Below, piece by piece: positions 26,037 through 38,053 of a DNA stretch of 38,053 nucleotides. The translations under genes were made by a program, and so were the position numbers. The DNA is from Methanosaeta sp. PtaB.Bin018 (GTDB taxonomy: Archaea; Halobacteriota; Methanosarcinia; Methanotrichales; Methanotrichaceae): assembly GCA_002067755.1 (NCBI GenBank), contig MVQH01000063.1:1-38053 (forward strand), in the 5' to 3' direction. Below the pieces are notes generated by a model that searched no databases, was not told the origin of the DNA, and saw only the letters and a list, made by a program, of their open reading frames with translations. The stretch's first letter is position 1. Each line of letters starts with the position of its first letter.

Positions 26037-27005
26037 CTATCGCCACTTTGCGATCATAGACAGCGTAGCGCTCTCATAAGTCTTTATATTTGCAGGCTGT
26101 AAACTTGGCTTTGGCACTGCTATGAACGACATGAATGAGTAGTCCACCGGAACAGTTCTAACCTCAAAAATATTGTTATTTGTATTTGTGTAATATGGGG
26201 TGAAGCTCATCCCAGCTATGATCGTCCCGGCTGACAAACCAACCATTGGCAATAATTCACACTTGTCATTTGATAGAATGCTCAAAGACCCTACCATACT
26301 GCTGCCATCCGAATCCGCTCTTATACCGTCGTACCAGTTGTTGTCTGCGCCCTCTGTTTCAGAGTCGTCTTCGTCTACTAATGATTCTATCTTTACCGTC
26401 TTCCCCAAGTTTTGAATTTCTATACTGGAATAAAATCCATTTCCAGTCTCACCCACGGACGATCCAAATCCCTCAGACGTTATAGAATCGGGTGTAACTT
26501 GCGATTTGTCCTCGTAATCCGCATTCTTCGTTGACACACGTTTTTGTTCTGCGGAATTGGTGTTGGAATACGATGCGTCGATGGTTCCACTTGATATCTG
26601 TGAGGTCGCACCAATTCCCATGGACACATCATTGGATGCGTCTAGCGTCTTGGACCATTTAAACAATCCTGATTGGGTCTCAACTGATACATCCACGTTC
26701 TTTGTGTCGCCTTTTGACTTGGTTGCAACTACAGAATGGGAGAACTTGCCGCCAGAGCTGGTTGAACTGCCAGCGCCATCGGAGTGAATGCCATATGGAA
26801 ACTCGGCAAACCCCGTATACGGTAGCAGCACTGCAGAAGATTCATATTTGGCATTATCAACGCCGATACTCTCGTGGGCGGTTGTCTCCGAATTGAATAG
26901 TGTAATGCTAACGCTGACTGTAGCATCGGCTGTGAATGCCAAGATTGAGATGAGAATTACGCAAATCGCTGTAATCCTCCTCAACGATCTCTTGTTTGGT
27001 CTCAT
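26037..27005 (-). CDS. Secreted protein of unknown function, 322 residues
   Basis: Not recognised. A clear signal peptide (MRPNKRSLRRITAICVILISILAFTADA) precedes a Ser/Thr/Asp-rich, mostly beta-strand-like protein with many N-glycosylation sequons and almost no cysteine. It contains stretches such as FSHSVVATKSKGDTKNVDVSVETQSGLFKWSKTLDASNDVSMGIGATSQISSGTIDASYSN. This composition is typical of methanogen cell-surface proteins. It follows the 27045 gene by 39 bp on the same strand with a GGGGAGG ribosome binding site, and the two probably form a unit. Codon use and AT content differ from the information-processing genes. Confidence 0.7.
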   Translation of the reverse strand: MRPNKRSLRRITAICVILISILAFTADATVSVSITLFNSETTAHESIGVDNAKYESSAVLLPYTGFAEFPYGIHSDGAGSSTSSGGKFSHSVVATKSKGDTKNVDVSVETQSGLFKWSKTLDASNDVSMGIGATSQISSGTIDASYSNTNSAEQKRVSTKNADYEDKSQVTPDSITSEGFGSSVGETGNGFYSSIEIQNLGKTVKIESLVDEDDSETEGADNNWYDGIRADSDGSSMVGSLSILSNDKCELLPMVGLSAGTIIAGMSFTPYYTNTNNNIFEVRTVPVDYSFMSFIAVPKPSLQPANIKTYESATLSMIAKWR

Positions 27006-27044: not shown

Positions 27045-27710
27045 TTAACCTACTAACAGAATTGAATTGGTGCTGAGGGCGCCTGTATATTCCAAACCGC
27101 ATTCGTTGATCGAGTCTATGTAATCGAATCCGTTCTCCCATCCAAAGCCCGAAATATCTGAGATGGATGGATCATAAACGATATCCGAGAGCGTGCTCCC
27201 AGTTAGCGTACTTGCAGCTCCAAAATCATATTCATTTTCGCCAATTTTAACTGTGTTCATGTTGTAGCCGCCGGCGCTGTTGCTAGACAGTTCGCCACCG
27301 AATAGCTGTTGAATTGCAAATAAGTATGGTGTGAATGTGCTGGAATGAGTTCTGAACTGAGAAATTCTATACCCATTCGTGGTTGGGATGGTTTGAGTCA
27401 ATGCTGCGACCATGCCAAACGATTTGGCTCCAGAAGCGGAGGTCAATACACCTGTATTTATTGAAACAGACCGGCCATCGACAAAATTGAAGTTCGCTTC
27501 AGTTTTAAAATCAAGAACGGTCTCATCATCGCCCGACGCGCTGGTGGAAACTGTGTATCCTCCACCAACATCTTTATTCAACTCAGGAGATTTAAAATAC
27601 ACATTGGTGTAGGTGAAGGTGCCCACATTTGTTTTGGTGTCTCCAGCGCTAGCTACTGCAACACTTCCCAATAGCAGCGTGACCAACAAGGCGGCCAATA
27701 TCTTCGTCAT
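27045..27710 (-). CDS. Secreted protein of unknown function, 221 residues
   Basis: Not recognised. It has a signal peptide (MTKILAALLVTLLLGSVAVASAG) and a Ser/Thr/Asn/Gly-rich body with alternating hydrophobic residues, suggesting a beta-rich extracellular protein (YTNVYFKSPELNKDVGGGYTVSTSASGDDETVLDFKTEANFNF). There is one cysteine near the C-terminus (INECGLEYTG). It is first of a two-gene unit with the 26037 gene. The 15 bases before its start codon are shared with those before the 27995 gene. Confidence 0.7.
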   Translation of the reverse strand: MTKILAALLVTLLLGSVAVASAGDTKTNVGTFTYTNVYFKSPELNKDVGGGYTVSTSASGDDETVLDFKTEANFNFVDGRSVSINTGVLTSASGAKSFGMVAALTQTIPTTNGYRISQFRTHSSTFTPYLFAIQQLFGGELSSNSAGGYNMNTVKIGENEYDFGAASTLTGSTLSDIVYDPSISDISGFGWENGFDYIDSINECGLEYTGALSTNSILLVG

Positions 27711-27994: not shown

Positions 27995-28402
27995 TTAATT
28001 TGCATAACCCTCTGCATGGGATTCAGCAGTTGCATATGCACTGGTATCGGTGACTGCTGCATGATCGGTTGTGTATGTGTTGGTCACAGCAAGGTTAGGT
28101 CCTTGAGCATAAGCGAATGCATTGGAGTATGCATCGGCCAAAGCAAAACTGTCTATTAGTGCGAATGCCTGTCCAGTTGAAGCTGAGATGGAAACGGGAT
28201 CTATCTTTGCGTCTTCCCATGTCCAAGTCGAAGTCCAAGCTACAGAGAAGGGGTCATAGTTTTTCATGCTCATTGCGCTTGCACTTGCGAATGCATCAGC
28301 GCTCCCCTTTGCTGCAGGTCTATTATTATGATTAAGAGCTACAGATGCTGAGCAAATCAATCCTAATACTAGGATCGATACGATCAATCTCAATTTTCTC
28401 AT
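27995..28402 (-). CDS. Small secreted Ala/Ser-rich protein
   Basis: Not recognised. A signal peptide (MRKLRLIVSILVLGLICSASVAL) is followed by about 110 residues with high Ala, Ser and Thr content and repeated aromatic-free patterns such as GSADAFASASAMSMKN, GQAFALIDSFALADAYSNAFAYAQG and TSAYATAESHAEGYAN. The periodic A-F-A / A-Y-A spacing suggests beta strands or a low-complexity surface protein. It shares a 15-bp leader with the 27045 gene, so the two may be related in regulation. Confidence 0.65.
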   Translation of the reverse strand: MRKLRLIVSILVLGLICSASVALNHNNRPAAKGSADAFASASAMSMKNYDPFSVAWTSTWTWEDAKIDPVSISASTGQAFALIDSFALADAYSNAFAYAQGPNLAVTNTYTTDHAAVTDTSAYATAESHAEGYAN

Positions 28403-28613: not shown

Positions 28614-30332
28614 TTAATAGTTCAGATAATATCTCTTATTTGGGGTCATATCATTGAGAATGGGGGTTTGGCTCTGCAAGTGGCCGTTGGACCATTGGAT
28701 CGTGCTCTTATACGCCTCATAAAAGCAGTTTTGAAGGATTATTTTGCTCCCCTTCTTAGCTTCTTTATTTATAGCGTTACACAAATTTTGGGTAAATACA
28801 CTAAGAGAGCCCAGCCACTCTTCGTTGCTCGGCTCGTTCATCTTGGATGAAGCCAGCAGCAATTGACCTTCTGCGGTGACATCTAATAGCGCGCCACTAT
28901 TGCATGCATCTATTATTATAGCTAAATTCTTGATATCTTTAATATATTGATTCAATTCTTCTTCGCTGATGTATGATGATGTTGCACCATTTGCATCTTT
29001 AGGAATTAGGTAATAGTTTCCGTCACGATCCAAGTATCCATGCCCGGAAAAATAGATCAAGGCGTTTCCCACTTCATCCCGCTTTTGCTTCATCTCTGCC
29101 AATGCTACTTTCAAGATGTTCTCCTTTGTTGGCGGGCAGGGGGTCTCGTCTGTCAAGACCTTGACTTCGTACCCGTGCGACCTCAACAAATCCGCCATGG
29201 TGTTGGCGTCATTCACACTGGTGCGCAGGGGCCTCCTGTCTTTATACTCATCAATCCCAATTACGATGGCGAAGTTCTTCTTTTCGTCTCCTTTTTTGCT
29301 GCTTTTTGGTAGTGTCTCCAAATCAACGTAATTGATCTCTTGCATTTGTTTTTTAGATTTCTCCTTTAATAGAATGTTTATGTTCCTGAGCGTGTTGCTC
29401 TCACGTCCAAGTTCGCTTTGCACTCCATCTGGATAGGCTATTTCAGTTTTTTGAAGGTTTTTGTTTAGGTAGTTTATGTTAGAGTCAATGCTATGTGATA
29501 GATCGATGGCATCGGCCCAATTGGCATCCTGTTTGTAGTTGTAATCATCATGCTCGTGCATTTCATGCGTTCTCACGTCAATGACGGAAGATACATTAGA
29601 GCTAGCGATCAGATCGGATCTTATGATATATGTCTCATCGCTCTTGTACACATAGTTCTCTTTCGAGTTGGTGATTGTAATAACATTCGGGCTTATAATC
29701 CCTAGACTATGATCAAATGCATCCTTATTCTCATAAATATAATTCTTTTTTGAATCTTTATTGGAGACCATCCCAGATCCGTCTATTCGGGTTGTCTTTG
29801 AGTTATCTGGTTCTCTGGCATTATTTTCTCTAGCATTATATTCTCTGGCATTATATTTGAAAAGGCTGCCAAGATTTGAATCGATATCATGATAATCGTG
29901 AGAGTCTGCATGAAAATTTATGTCAGTCTTATTTAGCAGTTCTATTTTTTGGCCTATAGCAGATGCGTAATCATCTCCGTCTCTAATACTCTGTTTAAGC
30001 TTTTCTACGGGATCTTCCTTGTCATATCTATTATTTATATAATATTCCAAATTTTTATCAATATTGTGCATCGTATTACTGTGCGAAAAACCACCTTGCT
30101 CTTCGGCCTTAGAATCGGCTATTTTGGTGTCATATGGGTCTATTAACTGGCTCTCCTCATTTAAGGCACCATCTTTCTTGGTAAGAATATCTATACAAAT
30201 CTCAGTGCACTGCGTGATATTTGCCTGCTCTCTGGCTGCATCTACCTGGGGTGCAATCATCATAATCATGAGGGCCAATATAACGCACGCTCTCAATTGC
30301 GCCGCCTCTGTAGTATATTTTGGTTTGATCAT
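28614..30332 (-). CDS. Secreted caspase-family (orthocaspase-like) protein
   Basis: The C-terminal third is a caspase-fold peptidase domain: KNFAIVIGIDEYKDRRPLRTSVNDANTMADLLRSHGYEV, ALIYFSGHGYLDRDGNYYLIPKDA with catalytic His (about 431), and LAIIIDACNSGALLD with catalytic Cys (about 477). The long N-terminal part (about 330 residues) is Asn/Asp/Lys-rich and unrecognised, with a NARE repeat. I start at 30332 (MIKPKYTTEAAQLRACVILALMIMMIAPQVDAA), which yields a signal peptide. The frame is open 45 codons more, but TATA-like sequence lies in that part. A cell-surface or extracellular location is inferred. Orthocaspases usually cut after Arg or Lys; the specificity here is unknown. Confidence 0.85.
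   Translation of the reverse strand: MIKPKYTTEAAQLRACVILALMIMMIAPQVDAAREQANITQCTEICIDILTKKDGALNEESQLIDPYDTKIADSKAEEQGGFSHSNTMHNIDKNLEYYINNRYDKEDPVEKLKQSIRDGDDYASAIGQKIELLNKTDINFHADSHDYHDIDSNLGSLFKYNAREYNARENNAREPDNSKTTRIDGSGMVSNKDSKKNYIYENKDAFDHSLGIISPNVITITNSKENYVYKSDETYIIRSDLIASSNVSSVIDVRTHEMHEHDDYNYKQDANWADAIDLSHSIDSNINYLNKNLQKTEIAYPDGVQSELGRESNTLRNINILLKEKSKKQMQEINYVDLETLPKSSKKGDEKKNFAIVIGIDEYKDRRPLRTSVNDANTMADLLRSHGYEVKVLTDETPCPPTKENILKVALAEMKQKRDEVGNALIYFSGHGYLDRDGNYYLIPKDANGATSSYISEEELNQYIKDIKNLAIIIDACNSGALLDVTAEGQLLLASSKMNEPSNEEWLGSLSVFTQNLCNAINKEAKKGSKIILQNCFYEAYKSTIQWSNGHLQSQTPILNDMTPNKRYYLNY
29811..29855. repeat. Three 15-bp tandem repeats within the caspase gene
   Basis: Units at 29811-29825, 29826-29840 and 29841-29855 differ at one or two bases and encode YNARE, YNARE, NNARE on the minus strand. 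They lie in the low-complexity region ahead of the peptidase domain. Confidence 0.92.
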
Positions 30333-30543: not shown

Positions 30544-31190
30544 TCATTCTTGAATCATATTCCCCATATTGTTCGCTGCTACATGCTCTAATGATATTCT
30601 TTTCACCTCTGAGAAGACAGTTTTTAGCCGCCCATCACCTCCCATAGTCATACTCCTCCTTCCAGCGCTGAATAGCCCCAATGCTCTCATCTCTTTGACT
30701 GCTTTTGCTCTCGTGGGAGAGCCTCTGGCTTTCATGTTAGCGTTCGATCGAGTCATTATGACCGGATGAATCTGCTTTTCCTGGAGGTTATCGCTGACTA
30801 GAGTCGGCGAGAGTCTCGACTTCGTCGAAACAGATCGAAGATCTCTCGCCTATCAAAAATCTCTCACCTATCAAAAGCTCCATCGCCCAACGCCATCTCG
30901 ACCCTGCGGCCTGAAAGGTTCTCCTCTGCCTGGTCGAGGAGCGAGTTGAATCTGCTGTCCTCCGAAACCCGCTCGTCTGTGACTTCGATCGCAACTATCT
31001 CTTTGGTCCTCAAGTCAACTGCCAGATGGAACTTTATCCAGCCCCGATGGGCCTTCCATTTCTATCGCATCCATTCACCACGATTGATCTCCACTAGATC
31101 CCTCTCCCAGCTCTCAAGAAAGTCGAAGGTCAGGTACATCTCGCCGCGCTTGACGAGAGCGGCCTGAAGGGCGTCCTCATGGCCGCTCGC
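30544..31190 (-). pseudogene. Decayed IS5-type transposase
   Basis: Read on the minus strand in shifting frames, pieces of a DDE transposase appear in order. First an N-terminal piece (ALVKRGEMYLTFDFLESWERDLVEINRG, about 31155-31085). Then, after loss of the middle part, KAHRGWIKFHLAVDLRTKEIVAIEVTDERVSEDSRFNSLLDQAEENLSGRRVEMALGDGAFDR. Finally, after further frame changes, PVIMTRSNANMKARGSPTRAKAVKEMRALGLFSAGRRSMTMGGDGRLKTVFSEVKR. Several stops interrupt it, one caused by an 18-bp duplication at 30841-30876. Terminal inverted repeats were not identified. It abuts the polymerase remnant. Confidence 0.75.
30841..30876. repeat. 18-bp tandem duplication inside the transposase remnant
   Basis: ATCTCTCGCCTATCAAAA (30841-30858) is followed by a copy with one mismatch (30859-30876). 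On the minus strand the altered copy places TGA after GAFDR and so closes the frame. Confidence 0.9.
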
Positions 31191-32057
31191 CTATCCGGCC
31201 TCTCTCCATCTTACCTCCCGCTTCGCTCCTGGAACGCTCATCTCCAGCTACGAGATCTTCGAGGCTCTGCGCCGGGGCGTGGCTGTGCCCTTCAGGAAGA
31301 GGGAAGCAGAAGGCAGGAAGAACATATCCGAGCTGAGGGCCTGCGACAAGGGAGGCATGATCTTCCAGCCTTTGCCCGGAGTGTACGAACGGGTCCACCA
31401 GATCGACTTCGCATCTCTTCATCCATCGTCAAGTTACAACCTCTCGCCCGAAACAATTGAGCATCCTGGGCAAAATGGCTTCTTAAGCACCGTCCTCTCC
31501 GGGCAGCTGAACCTGCGCATCGAGACCAAGCGTCTGAAGAAGACCGACCAGGATCATGCCGGCATAGAATCAGTTCTGAAGTGGATGCTCATCACATGTT
31601 TTGGCTACACGGGCTACCGGAATGCTGAGTTTGGCCGGATACAGGTCCACGAGAGGATCACGGAGATCTCCATGGAGCTGCTGGTGCAGATCAAGGAGCT
31701 GGCCGAGGATACGGGCTTCCGGGTGCTGCACGGCATTGTGGACTGCCTTTGGGTTATCGGCGAGCTCATTGCAGACTTCAAGGAGGCTGTGGAGAGGGAG
31801 TGGATGTTAGGGCGCTGGCCATCCACCGCAGGGTGGGCAGGATGAACTATTCGCGAAGGTGTGCTGAGGCCTCGGCTGTGCAGGCTCATCTGAGGCAGGG
31901 AATCAGGCTGGCGCCAGGCATGGAGATAGGCTACGTGGTTAAGGATGCCAAAAGGTGGGTTGTCGAGCCGCAGAGGACGGCTGCAAATTTAGATGCCGTG
32001 TATCACAGGAAGCTGCTGGAGAAGGCATGGGAGGATGTGGAGTTTGCTTTTAAGTAG
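31191..32057 (+). pseudogene. Decayed family-B DNA polymerase
   Basis: A reading frame from about 31200 to 31800 carries polymerase B signatures: GTLISSYEIFEALRRGVAVPFRKREAEGRKNISELR, VHQIDFASLHPS (motif A, normally DFxSLYPS), SVLKWMLITCFGYTGYRNAEFGRI (motif B) and VLHGIVDCLWV (motif C position). It ends after VEREWM. A second frame (from about 31800 to 32057) resumes with IHRRVGRMNYSRRCAEASAVQAHLRQGIRLAPGMEIGYVVKDAKRWVVEP, the C-terminal thumb. Residues that should lie between VEREW and IHRR are missing, so there is both a deletion and a frameshift. The N-terminal exonuclease half is also absent. This is a dead gene fragment. Confidence 0.8.
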
Positions 32058-32220: not shown

Positions 32221-32493
32221 TCATGCATATCCATAAAGCTTATCTATCTCGCTTTGAAACATCTCGAATCGCTCTATCAGAGCCAACCCCTTTGGCGTAG
32301 TCTTGTAAACAACTCTGGAACCCTCAATGACTGCTTCGATGCATCCGTTTTTTATTAAAGTATCCAAATATGGCTTTACAGTCTTGAAGTTCATGTTGGC
32401 TTGATAGACAACCCTTGTTTTGCTCGCACCATGCCTGCAAATTTTCAAAATTTGCGACGCAATCAAGTCATTAGTCCTTCTTTTTGATCTCAT
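32221..32493 (-). CDS. Winged-helix DNA-binding protein (HTH_45-like)
   Basis: The 90-residue protein has the order RTNDLIASQILKICRHGASKTRVVYQANMNFKTVKPYLDTLIKNGCIEAVIEGSRVVYKTTPKGLALIERF, the pattern of archaeal single-domain winged-helix regulators of the HTH_45 type. The recognition helix is around NFKTVKPYLDTLIKNG and the wing around GSRVVYKTTPKG. No ligand domain is attached, so it is probably a DNA-binding regulator acting as a dimer. It is 24 bp downstream of the small secreted protein gene on the same strand and may control it. Such genes are common in mobile or accessory regions of methanogens. Confidence 0.82.
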   Translation of the reverse strand: MRSKRRTNDLIASQILKICRHGASKTRVVYQANMNFKTVKPYLDTLIKNGCIEAVIEGSRVVYKTTPKGLALIERFEMFQSEIDKLYGYA

Positions 32494-32517
32494 TATACAC
32501 CTCTCCCTGTAACAAGT

Positions 32518-32802
32518 TCAATATTTTATGTCGCATAATCCCGGTCTTTCGCCGTTGGGGATGAGCTTGTAGATTTTGCCGTCCAGGTCGACATTGACAT
32601 AGCTATCCTTCGGCACAGCGTTATAGTTATGAGTGGCAAGGAAGAAGGCCAGATCATGGGGATTCATGCGCTTATCTTCATTGCCTGAGACAAGTTTCTT
32701 CAAACCTGAGATATCATCATTCATGGCCAAGGCCGTGTTCAAGAAGGCCATCAGGGTGCAGGTGGCCACGATTGCAAGCAGATATTTCGTAACCCATCTC
32801 AT
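32518..32802 (-). CDS. Small secreted protein of unknown function
   Basis: Not recognised. The 94 residues start with a signal peptide (MRWVTKYLLAIVATCTLMAFLNTALA) and continue with a compact 68-residue domain: MNDDISGLKKLVSGNEDKRMNPHDLAFFLATHNYNAVPKDSYVNVDLDGKIYKLIPNGERPGLCDIKY. The single cysteine near the end cannot form an internal disulfide in the mature protein. It has a palindromic TATA-like promoter just upstream and precedes the winged-helix gene. Confidence 0.65.
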   Translation of the reverse strand: MRWVTKYLLAIVATCTLMAFLNTALAMNDDISGLKKLVSGNEDKRMNPHDLAFFLATHNYNAVPKDSYVNVDLDGKIYKLIPNGERPGLCDIKY

Positions 32803-33396: not shown

Positions 33397-33807
33397 GTGG
33401 CAGAGCGTAGCTTAGATAAGTTCTTGGAGGAGGCTACAGATGCTTCTCCATCATATTCTTTTCAAGAAAGGCTCGCAGTGCCTGCTTCGAGGGCAACTTG
33501 TGCCGTTTGCCATGATACCACTCCTGTGGCCCGCTATTCCCTGAGCAGCCTGGCTCCGAGGCTCACAAATGCCATCCTGCTGGCGGAGAGATTTCATCTG
33601 GCCTTGGGGAAGTTTCCTGATGGGTCAAGCGTCTTCACTAGCTGCGATGAGTCTGGAAAACTGCTGAAAGGCCATGCGCACCATAATCAGCGAGTCCAAC
33701 TGAGCATTGGGCAGGGGCCGGTGGCGGTAGGGTCTGCGACGCATTTTGGGATGGGGGATTTGTGGATGAAGACCGATTATAGGATAGGACCGGATCATGG
33801 AAGTTAG
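33397..33807 (+). CDS. Shortened Cas6/Csb2-like CRISPR protein
   Basis: The 136-residue ORF begins with GTG. Its middle, VARYSLSSLAPRLTNAILLAERFHLALGKFPDGSSVFTSCDESGKLLKGHAHHNQ, matches the pattern I recall from Csb2/Cas6-type proteins (ARFAL...P.lT.al..AER.R.AL...FSGkdadG.pL.GH.HA). It then jumps to SIGQGPVAVGSATHFGMGDLW, which resembles the glycine-rich C-terminal end of the same family. The usual proteins are two to three times longer, so the central part and N-terminus seem lost. Cysteines CAVC near residue 36 could bind zinc. It overlaps cmr1 by 11 bp and is first in the operon. It may be a degraded crRNA-processing protein or a new small subunit; the match is from memory. Confidence 0.6.
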   Translation: MAERSLDKFLEEATDASPSYSFQERLAVPASRATCAVCHDTTPVARYSLSSLAPRLTNAILLAERFHLALGKFPDGSSVFTSCDESGKLLKGHAHHNQRVQLSIGQGPVAVGSATHFGMGDLWMKTDYRIGPDHGS

Positions 33808-34879
33808 AATTCAGACTCTGACGCCCTTGTGGACTGGTGGCGTGCAAGCGGGCAAGGTGGATCGCATCCATGAAACAGGCATACTCGGAAGCATGCGCTG
33901 GTGGTACGAGGCCATAGTGCGTGGCTTGGGCGGAGAGTGCTGTGACCCTAGTCACACTGAGTGTGCCTTTACCGAAGAGAAATACCTAAAATCCCAGGCT
34001 GTCGATAAGCGTCAAAAGCTGCACGACGCTGGCCTATGCGACGTGTGTCAGGTCTTGGGAGCCACGGGCTGGAAGCGGAGGCTTAGGCTTGCTATTCAAG
34101 ATAGCACCAGGCATGATCCATCGATAGAAGATCGGCTGCAAGCCAATCGCTCATATGTTGGTGCCAATGGAAGGAGTCGCACACCCATCTGGTATTTTCC
34201 CAAAGAACTAAATTACAAGCCATGCTCTGGTGAGCTTAGCATTGGGGTCCAGAGCCTGTCTAATGATTTTGATCCTAAAGTCATCGCTGGCCTCGTCCAG
34301 TTTATCGCTGATTGGGCTGGAATGGGTGCGCGGGCGCAAATGGGCTTTGGTGTCGTTCAACTTGCAAACGGTAGGGTTGATACCAGACCACTTTACAATT
34401 ATATGCAATCAGTGGCAGGCAGCCACCCATATTTTAAATTACCCACCCTGCAAAACATTTTTCTGGCGCGCATCTTGCCAAAGGATGAGAGGCAGTTTGA
34501 CGAAAAGGAAACATTCAACCTGAAATACGACCTACGGCGCTTGTTTGCGCTGTCTGTAGACGACACGGAATTGCGCCACTTCGTGATGGGCACAACCAGG
34601 GGCACGCGGATAGCAGCGAAGGTCAAAATGTCGCGTCCATACAACGGTGGTAAGGAGATGCGCGTTTGGGGCTGGATACCTAAAGAACTGCCAAATGCCA
34701 AGAATTTTAAAAACAGGAATGATGTCGTGCAGGCTATCCACCAGCATTTGACCAATAACTACACAGTGCAGGTCTGGCGCGAGATGGATTCGGCGAGGGA
34801 TACCGTCGTCCCCAACAACAACGACGTTATGACGTTTTTGCGAACTCTGTTGAAGTTGGAGGAAGATCGTCATGCTTGA
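33797..34879 (+). CDS. cmr1: Type III-B CRISPR RAMP protein Cmr1
   Basis: Cmr1 is a subunit of the Cmr effector complex that contacts the 3' end of the crRNA-target duplex. The 360-residue protein starts MEVRIQTLTPLWTGG, has HETGILGSMRWWYEAIVRGLGGECCDP near residues 25-50, then LCDVCQVLGATGWKRRLRL, all close to the Cmr1 pattern (TPLxTGG, GxLRWWFRAL, CxxCxLFG). A glycine-rich loop lies at WAGMGARAQMGFGVVQL. The start ATG overlaps the preceding ORF, and the end overlaps the next RAMP gene by 8 bp, showing an operon. Base and codon use look different from the left part of the window. Confidence 0.9.
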   Translation: MEVRIQTLTPLWTGGVQAGKVDRIHETGILGSMRWWYEAIVRGLGGECCDPSHTECAFTEEKYLKSQAVDKRQKLHDAGLCDVCQVLGATGWKRRLRLAIQDSTRHDPSIEDRLQANRSYVGANGRSRTPIWYFPKELNYKPCSGELSIGVQSLSNDFDPKVIAGLVQFIADWAGMGARAQMGFGVVQLANGRVDTRPLYNYMQSVAGSHPYFKLPTLQNIFLARILPKDERQFDEKETFNLKYDLRRLFALSVDDTELRHFVMGTTRGTRIAAKVKMSRPYNGGKEMRVWGWIPKELPNAKNFKNRNDVVQAIHQHLTNNYTVQVWREMDSARDTVVPNNNDVMTFLRTLLKLEEDRHA

Positions 34880-35963
34880 CTACTATGGCTTCCAGCGAAT
34901 GCAATTGAACAGTAGCCTGAGCGAGCTTGAGCAGGCGAATGAGCAATTACGGCAGGCGAAAAAAATCCGGGAGAAACAGAAACGCAAAGAAGCTGTCAAT
35001 AAGGCAGAGAGAGAAATGAAACAGGCTGCCGAAAAAGCCGTGACGATTGAGCCTCATTTGGCCTATCTATGGTTCGAAGCCCTCAAGTCCGAACTTAAGA
35101 GCGATATCCGTGGTGCCTGGCAGAAAATATTGACCACCAGCCCTATTCCATCGGAGTTTCACTTTCTCCCCGACATATCGGCTGTCTCTTACACGCCGCC
35201 CTTGAGCTTCATGCTACGCATTCCCTTCTGCCTGCAAAAATCCTACATCAGCAAGGATGAGCGTGACTTTCACCTTCTCGACAATCCGCTGCGCAGAGAG
35301 AAGGTCTTTCAAACGCCGATGGTTGCCGCGACAAGCTGGAAGGGCGCCTTGCGCGCAGCTCTGTGGCAGCTGGGACACAAGCAAGATGATCCGGTCACCG
35401 TTCGCCTGCTTGGCAATAAGCGTGGGAGCGAGGAACAGCAGGCTGGCCGCCTGTATTTCTTCCCCACATTCTTCGACAAAATTGCTCTCGAAGTTATCAA
35501 CCCTCACGACCGCCAAACCGGCATCGACGCACGTGGGCCGATCTTGATGGAGTGCGTGCAACAAGAGGCGAGAGGCGATCTTATTTTACTTTACGTGCCC
35601 TTCGGCCCAATAGGGCAAACAGAGGAGGCCCTACGCACTGAAGTAGCCGAGGATTTGCAAGTGCTGGCCGAGGGCATTCGGGCGATGCTCACTATCTATG
35701 GCTTCGGCGCCAAGACCAGCAGCGGTTTCGGGATGACGGAGGATCGATTGGCAGGAGAGGGCAAACTGGCCTTCAGGGCGAAATTGGATGGCAGGACTGC
35801 ACCTACAATCACGCCTAAAGCAGCACAATCCCAACTGACATTGCCATCCGCTGAACCTTCGCTGACATCCGAGTACGTGTTTTCCAGTCTGACCGAACTT
35901 TACAGCCTATCGCAGTGTGTGACAGAGCAATTGAAATCAAGCGAAGGAGGCGCTGAGGTATGA
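34872..35963 (+). CDS. RAMP-superfamily CRISPR protein with N-terminal coiled coil
   Basis: The 363-residue protein begins with about 60 residues of charged helix (LSELEQANEQLRQAKKIREKQKRKEAVNKAEREMKQAAEKAV), probably a coiled coil. A RAMP domain follows: PPLSFMLRIPFCLQKSYISKDERDFHLLDNPLRREKVFQTPMVAATSWKGALRAALW, with the P..(S/T)WKG.LR signature near residues 147-160, GRLYFFPTFF, and a glycine-rich loop YGFGAKTSSGFGM near residue 280. It is most like Cmr6/Cmr4-type proteins or the RAMP usually next to Csx11, and I cannot separate these. Its TGA overlaps the next ATG. Confidence 0.78.
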   Translation: MLDYYGFQRMQLNSSLSELEQANEQLRQAKKIREKQKRKEAVNKAEREMKQAAEKAVTIEPHLAYLWFEALKSELKSDIRGAWQKILTTSPIPSEFHFLPDISAVSYTPPLSFMLRIPFCLQKSYISKDERDFHLLDNPLRREKVFQTPMVAATSWKGALRAALWQLGHKQDDPVTVRLLGNKRGSEEQQAGRLYFFPTFFDKIALEVINPHDRQTGIDARGPILMECVQQEARGDLILLYVPFGPIGQTEEALRTEVAEDLQVLAEGIRAMLTIYGFGAKTSSGFGMTEDRLAGEGKLAFRAKLDGRTAPTITPKAAQSQLTLPSAEPSLTSEYVFSSLTELYSLSQCVTEQLKSSEGGAEV

Positions 35964-38053
35964 CCCAGCTTGATGATTTGGCAACGCACCGCAATGCCCT
36001 CCTGCTTGCAGAAGCCGTCGGGTGGTTGCACGATTATCGAAAATGTTCAGATGGAAATATAAACGGCGGAGGCTTGCTGCCTCGTGCGGAATTAAAGGGA
36101 AGGTTTACCTCTCTGAGTCTACTTGATCTCGCCCTGCTCTCGCAAACTGAGTCGATCAATAAATTGCTCAATAACTGGGAGAATAAAGCCAAGGATCTCA
36201 CTGTTTCAAAGCTGTTAAGCTATCTATCTCGTTGCCATAACACTGCTCATTTTGATAAACAAAACCCAGTTGAAGAGACGCGAAACTACTCTCATATCCG
36301 AATAAGCACTCCCTTTGGCTTTGAAAGGAGGATTCCAGCTGGTCTCACAAGGTCACTTTGGGGCTTGCCTTGGAATAAGCTAACGAGCTATTCCACATCT
36401 GAGCGACAAGATCTGCGACAAACCGTAAGCGAACTGTTCTCTAAAACCATCGCAGACACTCGACGTCCCATCAATGAAGTGGACCTGTGGAGCTGGGGGT
36501 TGTTAGTAGGTGCGTTGTATAAGTCGGCGCTAGCCGGATCGCTGTTGACGGGTAGCACGCTGGCAGCATCCGACCTTCGCTGGCGGCTGTTAGGCATACG
36601 TGTGAATGGACTTGATTATCTCATCAACGTAGCACGCATCCCAGACCTGTTAGCAAGAAAGGATTTGCTCTCTGATGGACTGAATAAAGTGCGCGATCTC
36701 ATCGAGGTTACCTATCCTCTTGGGAGCGAAGTGTATCGAGATGAAAATGGCAGTGTCTATGTCGTACCTGATGTTGCAGATTTGCTGCAAAAATCCAACG
36801 GTTCAGGAATAAACCTGAGCACACTTATACTGAAAGCCTTTGAACAAGGGACATTGAGAAGTAACCCACAGCTCCAGCTCTGCGGGGAAATGGTGCCGCA
36901 TGTCGAACTCGAACCAACCTCCTGGTGGGGGCAGGACCCCAATTGGTCGAAAACATCTACAACATCTAACGACAAATTGCCAGACATCAGTAGCTTCGTC
37001 TCTCCTAAGGTGAGTTCACCAGCCAATGCCGCTAACATCGACCGGTTCTGGAGGAACCGCGAGCCAACGGACATCTGCACAGTATGTGGGCTTCGTCCAC
37101 AGGGCCCAACCGATAAGGCCGCCGAGCGTAACGTGTGCGACATTTGTGAGCAACGTCGTGACGATCGCTCACAGAAATGGGCAATCACAGAACCTAATAA
37201 AACGATTTGGACCGATGAAGTCGCAGACACGAATGGACGCCTGGCATTGCTGGTGGGGCGTTTTGAGCTGACCCATTGGCTGGATGGCAGTATGCTGAAT
37301 TCGTTGTTGCTAATTGCCCCTAATGATCCCCAGAATACTACGGGCAAACCTGTCACCAGCAAAACGTCCTCATTCAGCCGACTTCGGCGGATTTGGGAGA
37401 GCACGCGCTTATTTTGGCAGGAGACCCAAGAAGAAATTTTACGCCAGCTGACCGACGAACGCCACCGCATCAAAATTACTCTTAGCTCCATTCCCAATTT
37501 AGGACCTTATCATGTTTACGACCTCGATTTGGGTGCAACAAACCTTAGCGTGGTCTGGGTTCCGCCCCAGAATAACAATAATGGCTACTTGATCGCTGCT
37601 GACAATTTCGGCTATACTGCGCGCCAATTGGGTGCTGGGGCTGTCATATACACCAGCCCGAAAGCAGCAGCCGACTTTGTTAGAGGTCACTTATGCGCAC
37701 AATTCATGGAAAACAATCGCCATCCTGTCTTGCGTAATCTGGAAACATTGAAAGGCCAGCGCGGCCTCAATTTGCTGGCAGGTAGTCGTATTATGGATGT
37801 GGACTGCCAGCAAAGCCCGTATGCTGCGACCATCCCAATTCTTGCCGAGCCGCGCACATTTATGATGATTGTCCCGGCTGATAAAGCGCTTAAGATGGCC
37901 CAAACTATCAAGACAAAATACGAAACCGAAATGGGCAAAGTGCGCGATCGCTTGCCTTTGCACTTAGGATTAGTCTTCGCTCCGCGCCGCACGCCGATCC
38001 GTGCTGTGCTCGATGCTGGCCGGGCGATGCTCAATATGGCCGGTTCGTTCGAC
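35960..38053 (+). CDS. csx11: Csx11-like type III CRISPR large subunit, partial
   Basis: Starts at ATG 35960 (ATGA overlap) and stays open for 698 codons to the window edge. The N-terminus has LLLAEAVGWLHDYRK with a His-Asp pair at 24-25. A four-cysteine zinc finger (Cys373, 376, 393, 396; CTVCG...CDICEQRR) lies mid-protein. It is followed by GRLALLVGRFELTHWLDGSMLNSLL, reminiscent of the Cas10 palm entry. Near the visible end are MIVPADKALKMAQTIKTKYETEMGKVRDRLPLHLGLVFAPRRTPIRAVLDAGRAML, which fits Csx11, a divergent Cas10-type subunit. No GGDD motif is seen in the visible part. It would be the Cmr2/Cas10 equivalent of this complex; more genes likely follow outside the window. Confidence 0.85.
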   Translation, partial: MTQLDDLATHRNALLLAEAVGWLHDYRKCSDGNINGGGLLPRAELKGRFTSLSLLDLALLSQTESINKLLNNWENKAKDLTVSKLLSYLSRCHNTAHFDKQNPVEETRNYSHIRISTPFGFERRIPAGLTRSLWGLPWNKLTSYSTSERQDLRQTVSELFSKTIADTRRPINEVDLWSWGLLVGALYKSALAGSLLTGSTLAASDLRWRLLGIRVNGLDYLINVARIPDLLARKDLLSDGLNKVRDLIEVTYPLGSEVYRDENGSVYVVPDVADLLQKSNGSGINLSTLILKAFEQGTLRSNPQLQLCGEMVPHVELEPTSWWGQDPNWSKTSTTSNDKLPDISSFVSPKVSSPANAANIDRFWRNREPTDICTVCGLRPQGPTDKAAERNVCDICEQRRDDRSQKWAITEPNKTIWTDEVADTNGRLALLVGRFELTHWLDGSMLNSLLLIAPNDPQNTTGKPVTSKTSSFSRLRRIWESTRLFWQETQEEILRQLTDERHRIKITLSSIPNLGPYHVYDLDLGATNLSVVWVPPQNNNNGYLIAADNFGYTARQLGAGAVIYTSPKAAADFVRGHLCAQFMENNRHPVLRNLETLKGQRGLNLLAGSRIMDVDCQQSPYAATIPILAEPRTFMMIVPADKALKMAQTIKTKYETEMGKVRDRLPLHLGLVFAPRRTPIRAVLDAGRAMLNMAGSFD

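Follow-up and report, generated by a model that had tools for sequence, protein, structure and literature searches.

An exported metacaspase-type protease at a candidate cell-surface locus of Methanotrichaceae

What might a methanogenic archaeon do with a caspase-like protease that carries an export signal? Methanothrix species, a major source of methane, are methanogens housed in protein tubes. To our knowledge, little has been established about what prokaryotic caspase homologues do in nature, and they are usually framed in terms of cell death. The gene considered here lies in Methanosaeta sp. PtaB.Bin018 (genome G000; 2.2 Mb, 96% complete), and the window, meaning the whole stretch of DNA that was analyzed, is its entire 38-kb contig C63 (38,053 nucleotides). 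Relatives used for comparison were Methanothrix and Methanotrichaceae MAGs, including bin.308 (G021), LacPavin (G028), fen_7 (G001), MAG 280 (G014), SKW87 (G042), and Ch14 (G003). The clade emerges as a case in which genome context points a prokaryotic caspase homologue to the cell surface, and we see about an even chance that this exported metacaspase-type protease is dedicated to a Methanotrichaceae surface locus whose products it processes. Features of the window are listed in Table 1.

Table 1. Protease, its parts, and the secreted neighbors within the window
Feature	Position	Strand	Basis
Secreted C14 caspase-like (metacaspase/orthocaspase-type) protease, 572 aa	28614..30332	-	Pfam Peptidase_C14, AlphaFold, Foldseek, nine-member family
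Signal peptide, residues 1-32, hydrophobic core, V-D-A|A site	30237..30332	-	Sequence
Disordered prodomain, residues 33-349, rich in S/T/N/Q/Y and D/E, degenerate motifs	29286..30236	-	pLDDT, motif counts
Catalytic domain, residues 350-572: His431, Cys477, S1-pocket Asp375 and Asp475	28617..29285	-	Pfam, AlphaFold, alignment
Secreted Ala/Ser-rich 135-aa protein, candidate operon subunit	27995..28402	-	Homologues in same position
Secreted 221-aa protein X	27045..27710	-	X in G000, G021, G033
Secreted 322-aa protein Y	26037..27005	-	Profile match

By every sequence feature tested, the protein is a member of C14B, a group whose enzymes cleave after Arg or Lys and usually depend on Ca2+. With the metacaspases and orthocaspases (MEROPS C14B; Yca1, TbMCA2, AtMCA4) it shares the fold, the His-Cys dyad, the p20-then-p10 order, acidic S1 residues, and an N-terminal prodomain, but its clade is exported, restricted to Methanotrichaceae, and placed beside a wHTH regulator and membrane-protein pair and often a secreted operon. 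Pfam Peptidase_C14 matched residues 353 to 528 (E = 9.7e-22; 78 bits versus a cutoff of 21), and AlphaFold modeled residues 350 to 570 at a pLDDT of about 90 as a caspase-type fold that includes the p10 part, for which the best PDB matches in Foldseek were the yeast-type metacaspases C. glabrata MCA and Yca1 (E = 8e-11, probability 1.00). The catalytic His lies in SGHG and the Cys in DACNSG, and in an alignment of nine family members both are invariant, as are the two Asp residues. Asp375 and Asp475 align with the S1 residues of metacaspase-4, and the S1 acidic residues of TbMCA2, Asp95 and Asp211 (PMC4357240), were placed on the same columns by motif position, not by structural superposition. 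From these metacaspase S1 positions we infer a specificity for Arg or Lys at P1.

The open reading frame is intact from an ATG at 30332 to its stop codon and encodes, in order, a signal peptide, a disordered stretch of about 310 residues, and the C14 domain at the C terminus. Judged by eye and by hydrophobicity, the signal peptide consists of the hydrophobic stretch CVILALMIMMIAPQV followed by the V-D-A site. Translation may begin at TTG 30296 instead of the ATG, since comparison with G021 shows conservation around the TTG but not of the ATG; a signal peptide is retained under either start and, if the TTG is used, comprises residues 13 to 32 in the present numbering. By the same criteria all nine family members have a signal-like N terminus, and two claims of an initial sequence-only reading, that the enzyme is secreted by way of a signal peptide and that it has both catalytic residues, are supported.

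Beyond the signal peptide, the N-terminal region can barely be aligned across the nine members. Between 247 and 428 residues precede the enzyme domain in the family, and in the window protein, where disorder was modeled, pLDDT is below 50 for residues 34 to 348. Two degenerate motifs, I-x-S-N-L-x-Y-L and IASSD, occur 14 and 8 times in the nine prodomains versus 0.8 and 0.3 times in shuffled sequences, for patterns that were picked after inspection. A query with the G001 prodomain found no relatives elsewhere in 50 genomes, and the idea that the prodomain is a shared substrate or anchor motif was rejected. The end of the prodomain is basic: among its last 16 residues, six members have 4 to 7 Lys or Arg, one has 3, and two have 2. 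This stretch is a lead as a candidate cleavage site.

Members of the clade were found in 9 of 50 Methanotrichaceae genomes at E < 1e-97, with the next archaeal match at about 3e-21; a class-wide scan of 238 genomes likewise gave nine members below 1e-97 and a next match at 2.6e-21. This gap indicates a discrete clade restricted to Methanotrichaceae. A scan of named genomes with the full-length protein gave no matches, while a domain alignment used as the query did. The next-nearest named relatives so obtained are nearly all bacterial and only about 26 to 42% identical, and 25 of the 49 open reading frames among them that could be scored by crude hydrophobicity, with examples from Spirochaetes, Desulfobulbaceae, Campylobacteraceae, and Bacteroidota, pair a signal- or lipoprotein-like N terminus with C14. 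For many caspase homologues, a 2012 survey likewise records N-terminal helices or an extracellular annotation (PMC3501461). The contrast first drawn between this enzyme and most orthocaspases, described as intracellular, was therefore overstated: on such N-terminal features, export is not rare across the caspase superfamily, and secreted homologues are common in bacteria. The minority of class mates outside the clade that could be read begin at or near the domain and have no leader. Exported-looking C14 proteins also occur in a Hadesarchaea MAG and a Nanoarchaeota MAG (L094, L103).

Genes around the caspase recur across the family. In seven of the nine genomes, the 3' end of the caspase gene borders a closely spaced pair of genes for a winged-helix (wHTH) regulator and a two-helix membrane protein, present as a pair in G021, G028, G044, G042, G045, and G003 and as a frame-broken membrane-protein remnant at a contig terminus in G001. 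The pair is convergent with the caspase except in G044, where it is codirectional, and the adjacency is found in two orientations and at least four chromosomal contexts: a MoaC/NAD(P)HX-epimerase locus, the fpo operon, and two more, with flank functions named by eye. On the other side, an operon of secreted proteins that includes the helical family S186 diverges from the caspase in five of the nine (G021, G001, G042, G044, G045). Over the 50 genomes, co-occurrence with the caspase is 8/9 for the membrane protein and 7/9 for S186 (hypergeometric P = 4e-5 for each) and 5/9 for Y (P = 0.03), values that ignore shared ancestry and include some incomplete genomes; the repeated adjacency across several contexts carries more weight. 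Lack of conserved neighbors had been named as grounds for abandoning a surface role, and instead colocalization is kept in relatives across several genera and chromosomal contexts.

The linkage is not absolute. G014 carries the caspase alone, operons lacking an adjacent caspase were found in G000 (contig C90) and G003 (C3 and C28), and the pair or its wHTH gene can also stand with no caspase close by, as it does near the MoaC/epimerase flank of G016, G024, and G047 and in G039, G023, and G037. The region by the NAD(P)HX epimerase and MoaC is a variable hotspot that holds the wHTH pair, the caspase, and/or the secreted operon in differing combinations (L026, L028, L040, L042, L044, L162). At the usual place of the caspase in G037, a CHAT-NTPase-TPR protein is convergent to the pair (L039:940-4062).

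Within the window, the three genes downstream on the caspase strand have signal-like N termini, and no member of this secreted set gave a credible match above the curated thresholds of Pfam or NCBIfam, in which the 135-aa protein found no family. Homologues of all three are present in G021. Those of the 135-aa protein hold the same position in G021 (L026:7513-7929, about 70% identity) and G033 (L157:5609-6025), where the order is subunit-X-Y-Z; the window has subunit-X-Y and lacks Z at that place, and the G033 contig stops short of where a caspase could be seen. X is confined to these three genomes among the 50, and no homology was detected between it and proteins in the equivalent position of other operons. 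A conserved Lys of the 135-aa protein (AKG[ST]ADAF) was considered as a cleavage site and kept as a lead only, as few sequences are available and further conserved Lys residues are present. Z-type secreted proteins, which have a conserved Cys-Cys C-terminal region, were found in all 50 genomes, mostly in multiple copies (e.g., L036:2445-3359), so their presence or absence is uninformative, and they were rejected as a specific caspase partner. Disulfides are important for archaeal sheaths (PMC11576556).

Y, present in 12 of the 50 genomes, connects the secreted set of the window with operons that encode curlin-like repeats. Its profile matched the Y component of those operons (probability 97.1%, E = 7e-11), while the remaining 27 profile pairs each scored below 1%. 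Curlin-like repeat proteins together with a Y homologue are encoded on contig C90 of G000 and in G044, with weaker repeats in G003. A tandem [VILM]G-x2-N-x3-Q-x-[NS] pattern, enriched in four proteins, is shared with the curli (csg) system, but the Pfam curlin repeat matched none of six repeat proteins and the window's own set has no such repeats, and the neighboring operon type is curlin-like by pattern only. The second operon of G000 (L036:1186-8514) encodes 311- and 797-aa proteins rich in VGxxNxxxQxN repeats, which on this pattern are possibly an archaeal functional amyloid. Archaeal sheath SH proteins and MspA of M. thermoacetophila come from the same group of organisms and are secreted envelope proteins of amyloid type (PMC11576556, PMC6242892), but no SH protein was identified at the caspase locus, and the predicted model of Y (pLDDT 32.5) is too low in confidence for comparison with the SH core fold of two six-stranded beta sheets.

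We therefore favor surface processing, the role first suggested for this protein, which is the best reading of its conserved colocalization with secreted proteins in relatives; no link was found in the analyzed genomes to self/non-self recognition, which had been proposed alongside it. The exported caspase would work outside the membrane and shed its prodomain, probably by cutting the basic stretch before the enzyme domain. The mature enzyme would then cleave surface proteins encoded at the locus after Lys or Arg, with maturation, trimming, or remodeling of envelope fibers or sheath-associated material as the outcome. A role for metacaspases in removing insoluble aggregates has been noted (PMC4357240), an in-family precedent for work on aggregates. 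This proposal takes the export signal, active site, disordered leader, and conserved linkage from sequence and extends them to location, activity, specificity, substrates, and signaling. Against it stand the operons without an adjacent caspase, a putative cut site kept without a close caspase, and the solitary caspase of G014. Sheath proteins are present throughout Methanotrichales (PMC11576556), and a caspase found in 9 of 50 genomes is thus not needed for the sheath. The factors that assemble sheaths and plugs in Methanothrix are unknown, and the context of SH genes is uninformative (PMC11576556); the locus offers concrete candidates, among them a protease whose sites can be tested, the pair with the regulator, and secreted operons of curlin-like type.

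The caspase may also cut the membrane protein at a conserved Lys of its outer loop and thereby convey the state of the surface to the wHTH regulator, which in turn would tune the divergent operon. Eight caspase-bearing genomes have the membrane-protein gene or a remnant of it, and in each of them the loop reads [HN][QS]KG. The loop is placed outside only by the positive-inside rule, and its Lys-Gly is a lead as a candidate cut site. A signaling relay could in fact be the whole function, with a site-1-protease-like caspase cutting the loop to set wHTH activity and the operon as output rather than substrate, a prospect that we rate as unlikely though credible. The pair is a tighter partner (adjacent in seven of nine, present in eight) than any secreted protein, the presumed outer-loop Lys is conserved in every copy read, and two copies with no close caspase, G024 (HQKS) and the truncated G016 (HQKR), have lost Lys-Gly. 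However, several genomes with no caspase close by still have the pair or part of it, and three of them (G023, G037, G039) retain Lys-Gly; the topology is only predicted, and the Lys could be structural.

Joining relay and processing in one checkpoint of surface biogenesis, with the secreted metacaspase both acting on amyloid-like envelope proteins, to mature or remodel them, and reporting the surface state through the Lys-Gly cut, is a distinctly unlikely combination. If true, it would make the caspase a site-1-type signaling protease outside the cell. A role for metacaspases in removing insoluble aggregates has been noted (PMC4357240), an in-family precedent for work on aggregates.

Processing by the window's own copy must also be weighed against signs of rearrangement. 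The interval that separates the caspase from the next intact gene holds a broken DDE transposase (DDE_Tnp_1) and fragments of PolB, a family-B DNA polymerase (30640 to 32057), the wHTH-membrane pair of G000 is on contig C50 beside transposase-like open reading frames, and its closest S186 genes (C21 and C90) and Z-type genes (C74 and C90) are on other contigs. With partners scattered and transposase debris at hand, the same-strand arrangement is probably a secondary local rearrangement. The three secreted neighbors noted at the outset are present on the caspase strand, but the arrangement is probably not ancestral, the operon being divergent in five relatives. It seems improbable that the caspase and the three genes are a relic of transposon-driven breakup with no present function, as all four open reading frames are intact, catalytic and S1 residues are conserved, and the missing parts are still present elsewhere in the genome.

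Quite improbable as well is a generic secreted protease serving nutrition, competition, or self-lysis (programmed death or killing of neighbors), with incidental neighbors. Caspase homologues are traditionally tied to cell death, and secreted ones are common in bacteria, but the same genes are linked repeatedly in several contexts, and no recurring immunity, toxin, or lysis gene adjoins the caspase. On this genomic context, its role is probably surface processing or monitoring instead of triggering cell death.

Type III CRISPR genes encoding Cmr1, Cmr6, and Csx11 (TIGR02682, E = 9e-112) occupy 33797 to 38053 on the plus strand, Csx11 running off the contig end. That the caspase, some 3.5 kb away, is a craspase-like effector of this system is extremely improbable, given its signal peptide, the absence of a TPR-CHAT architecture, the opposite strand, the intervening transposase debris, and the lack of recognized CRISPR-like genes near the caspase in eight relatives. 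Caspase-linked defense proteins (craspase TPR-CHAT, NCBIfam caspase_w_EACC1, PADLOC caspase) have a clan CD domain in common with the window protein, which the PADLOC caspase model matches at E = 1.8e-16, but the window protein is exported and has no defense partner. Two specific assignments were rejected: the EACC1-associated caspase of NCBIfam, at 67.1 bits against a curated cutoff of 140, and the type III-E craspase (TPR-CHAT plus gRAMP), as the domain is C14 rather than CHAT. A text search of the open-access literature, which leaves subscription papers outside its scope, found no paper that treats Methanothrix and metacaspases together.

At 32221 to 32802 on the minus strand, an Sso10a-family winged-helix gene lies beside a gene for a small secreted protein. 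Similar wHTH genes occur near the wHTH-membrane pair in G000 (C50), G024, and G001 (C99) and near the secreted operon in G003 (C28).
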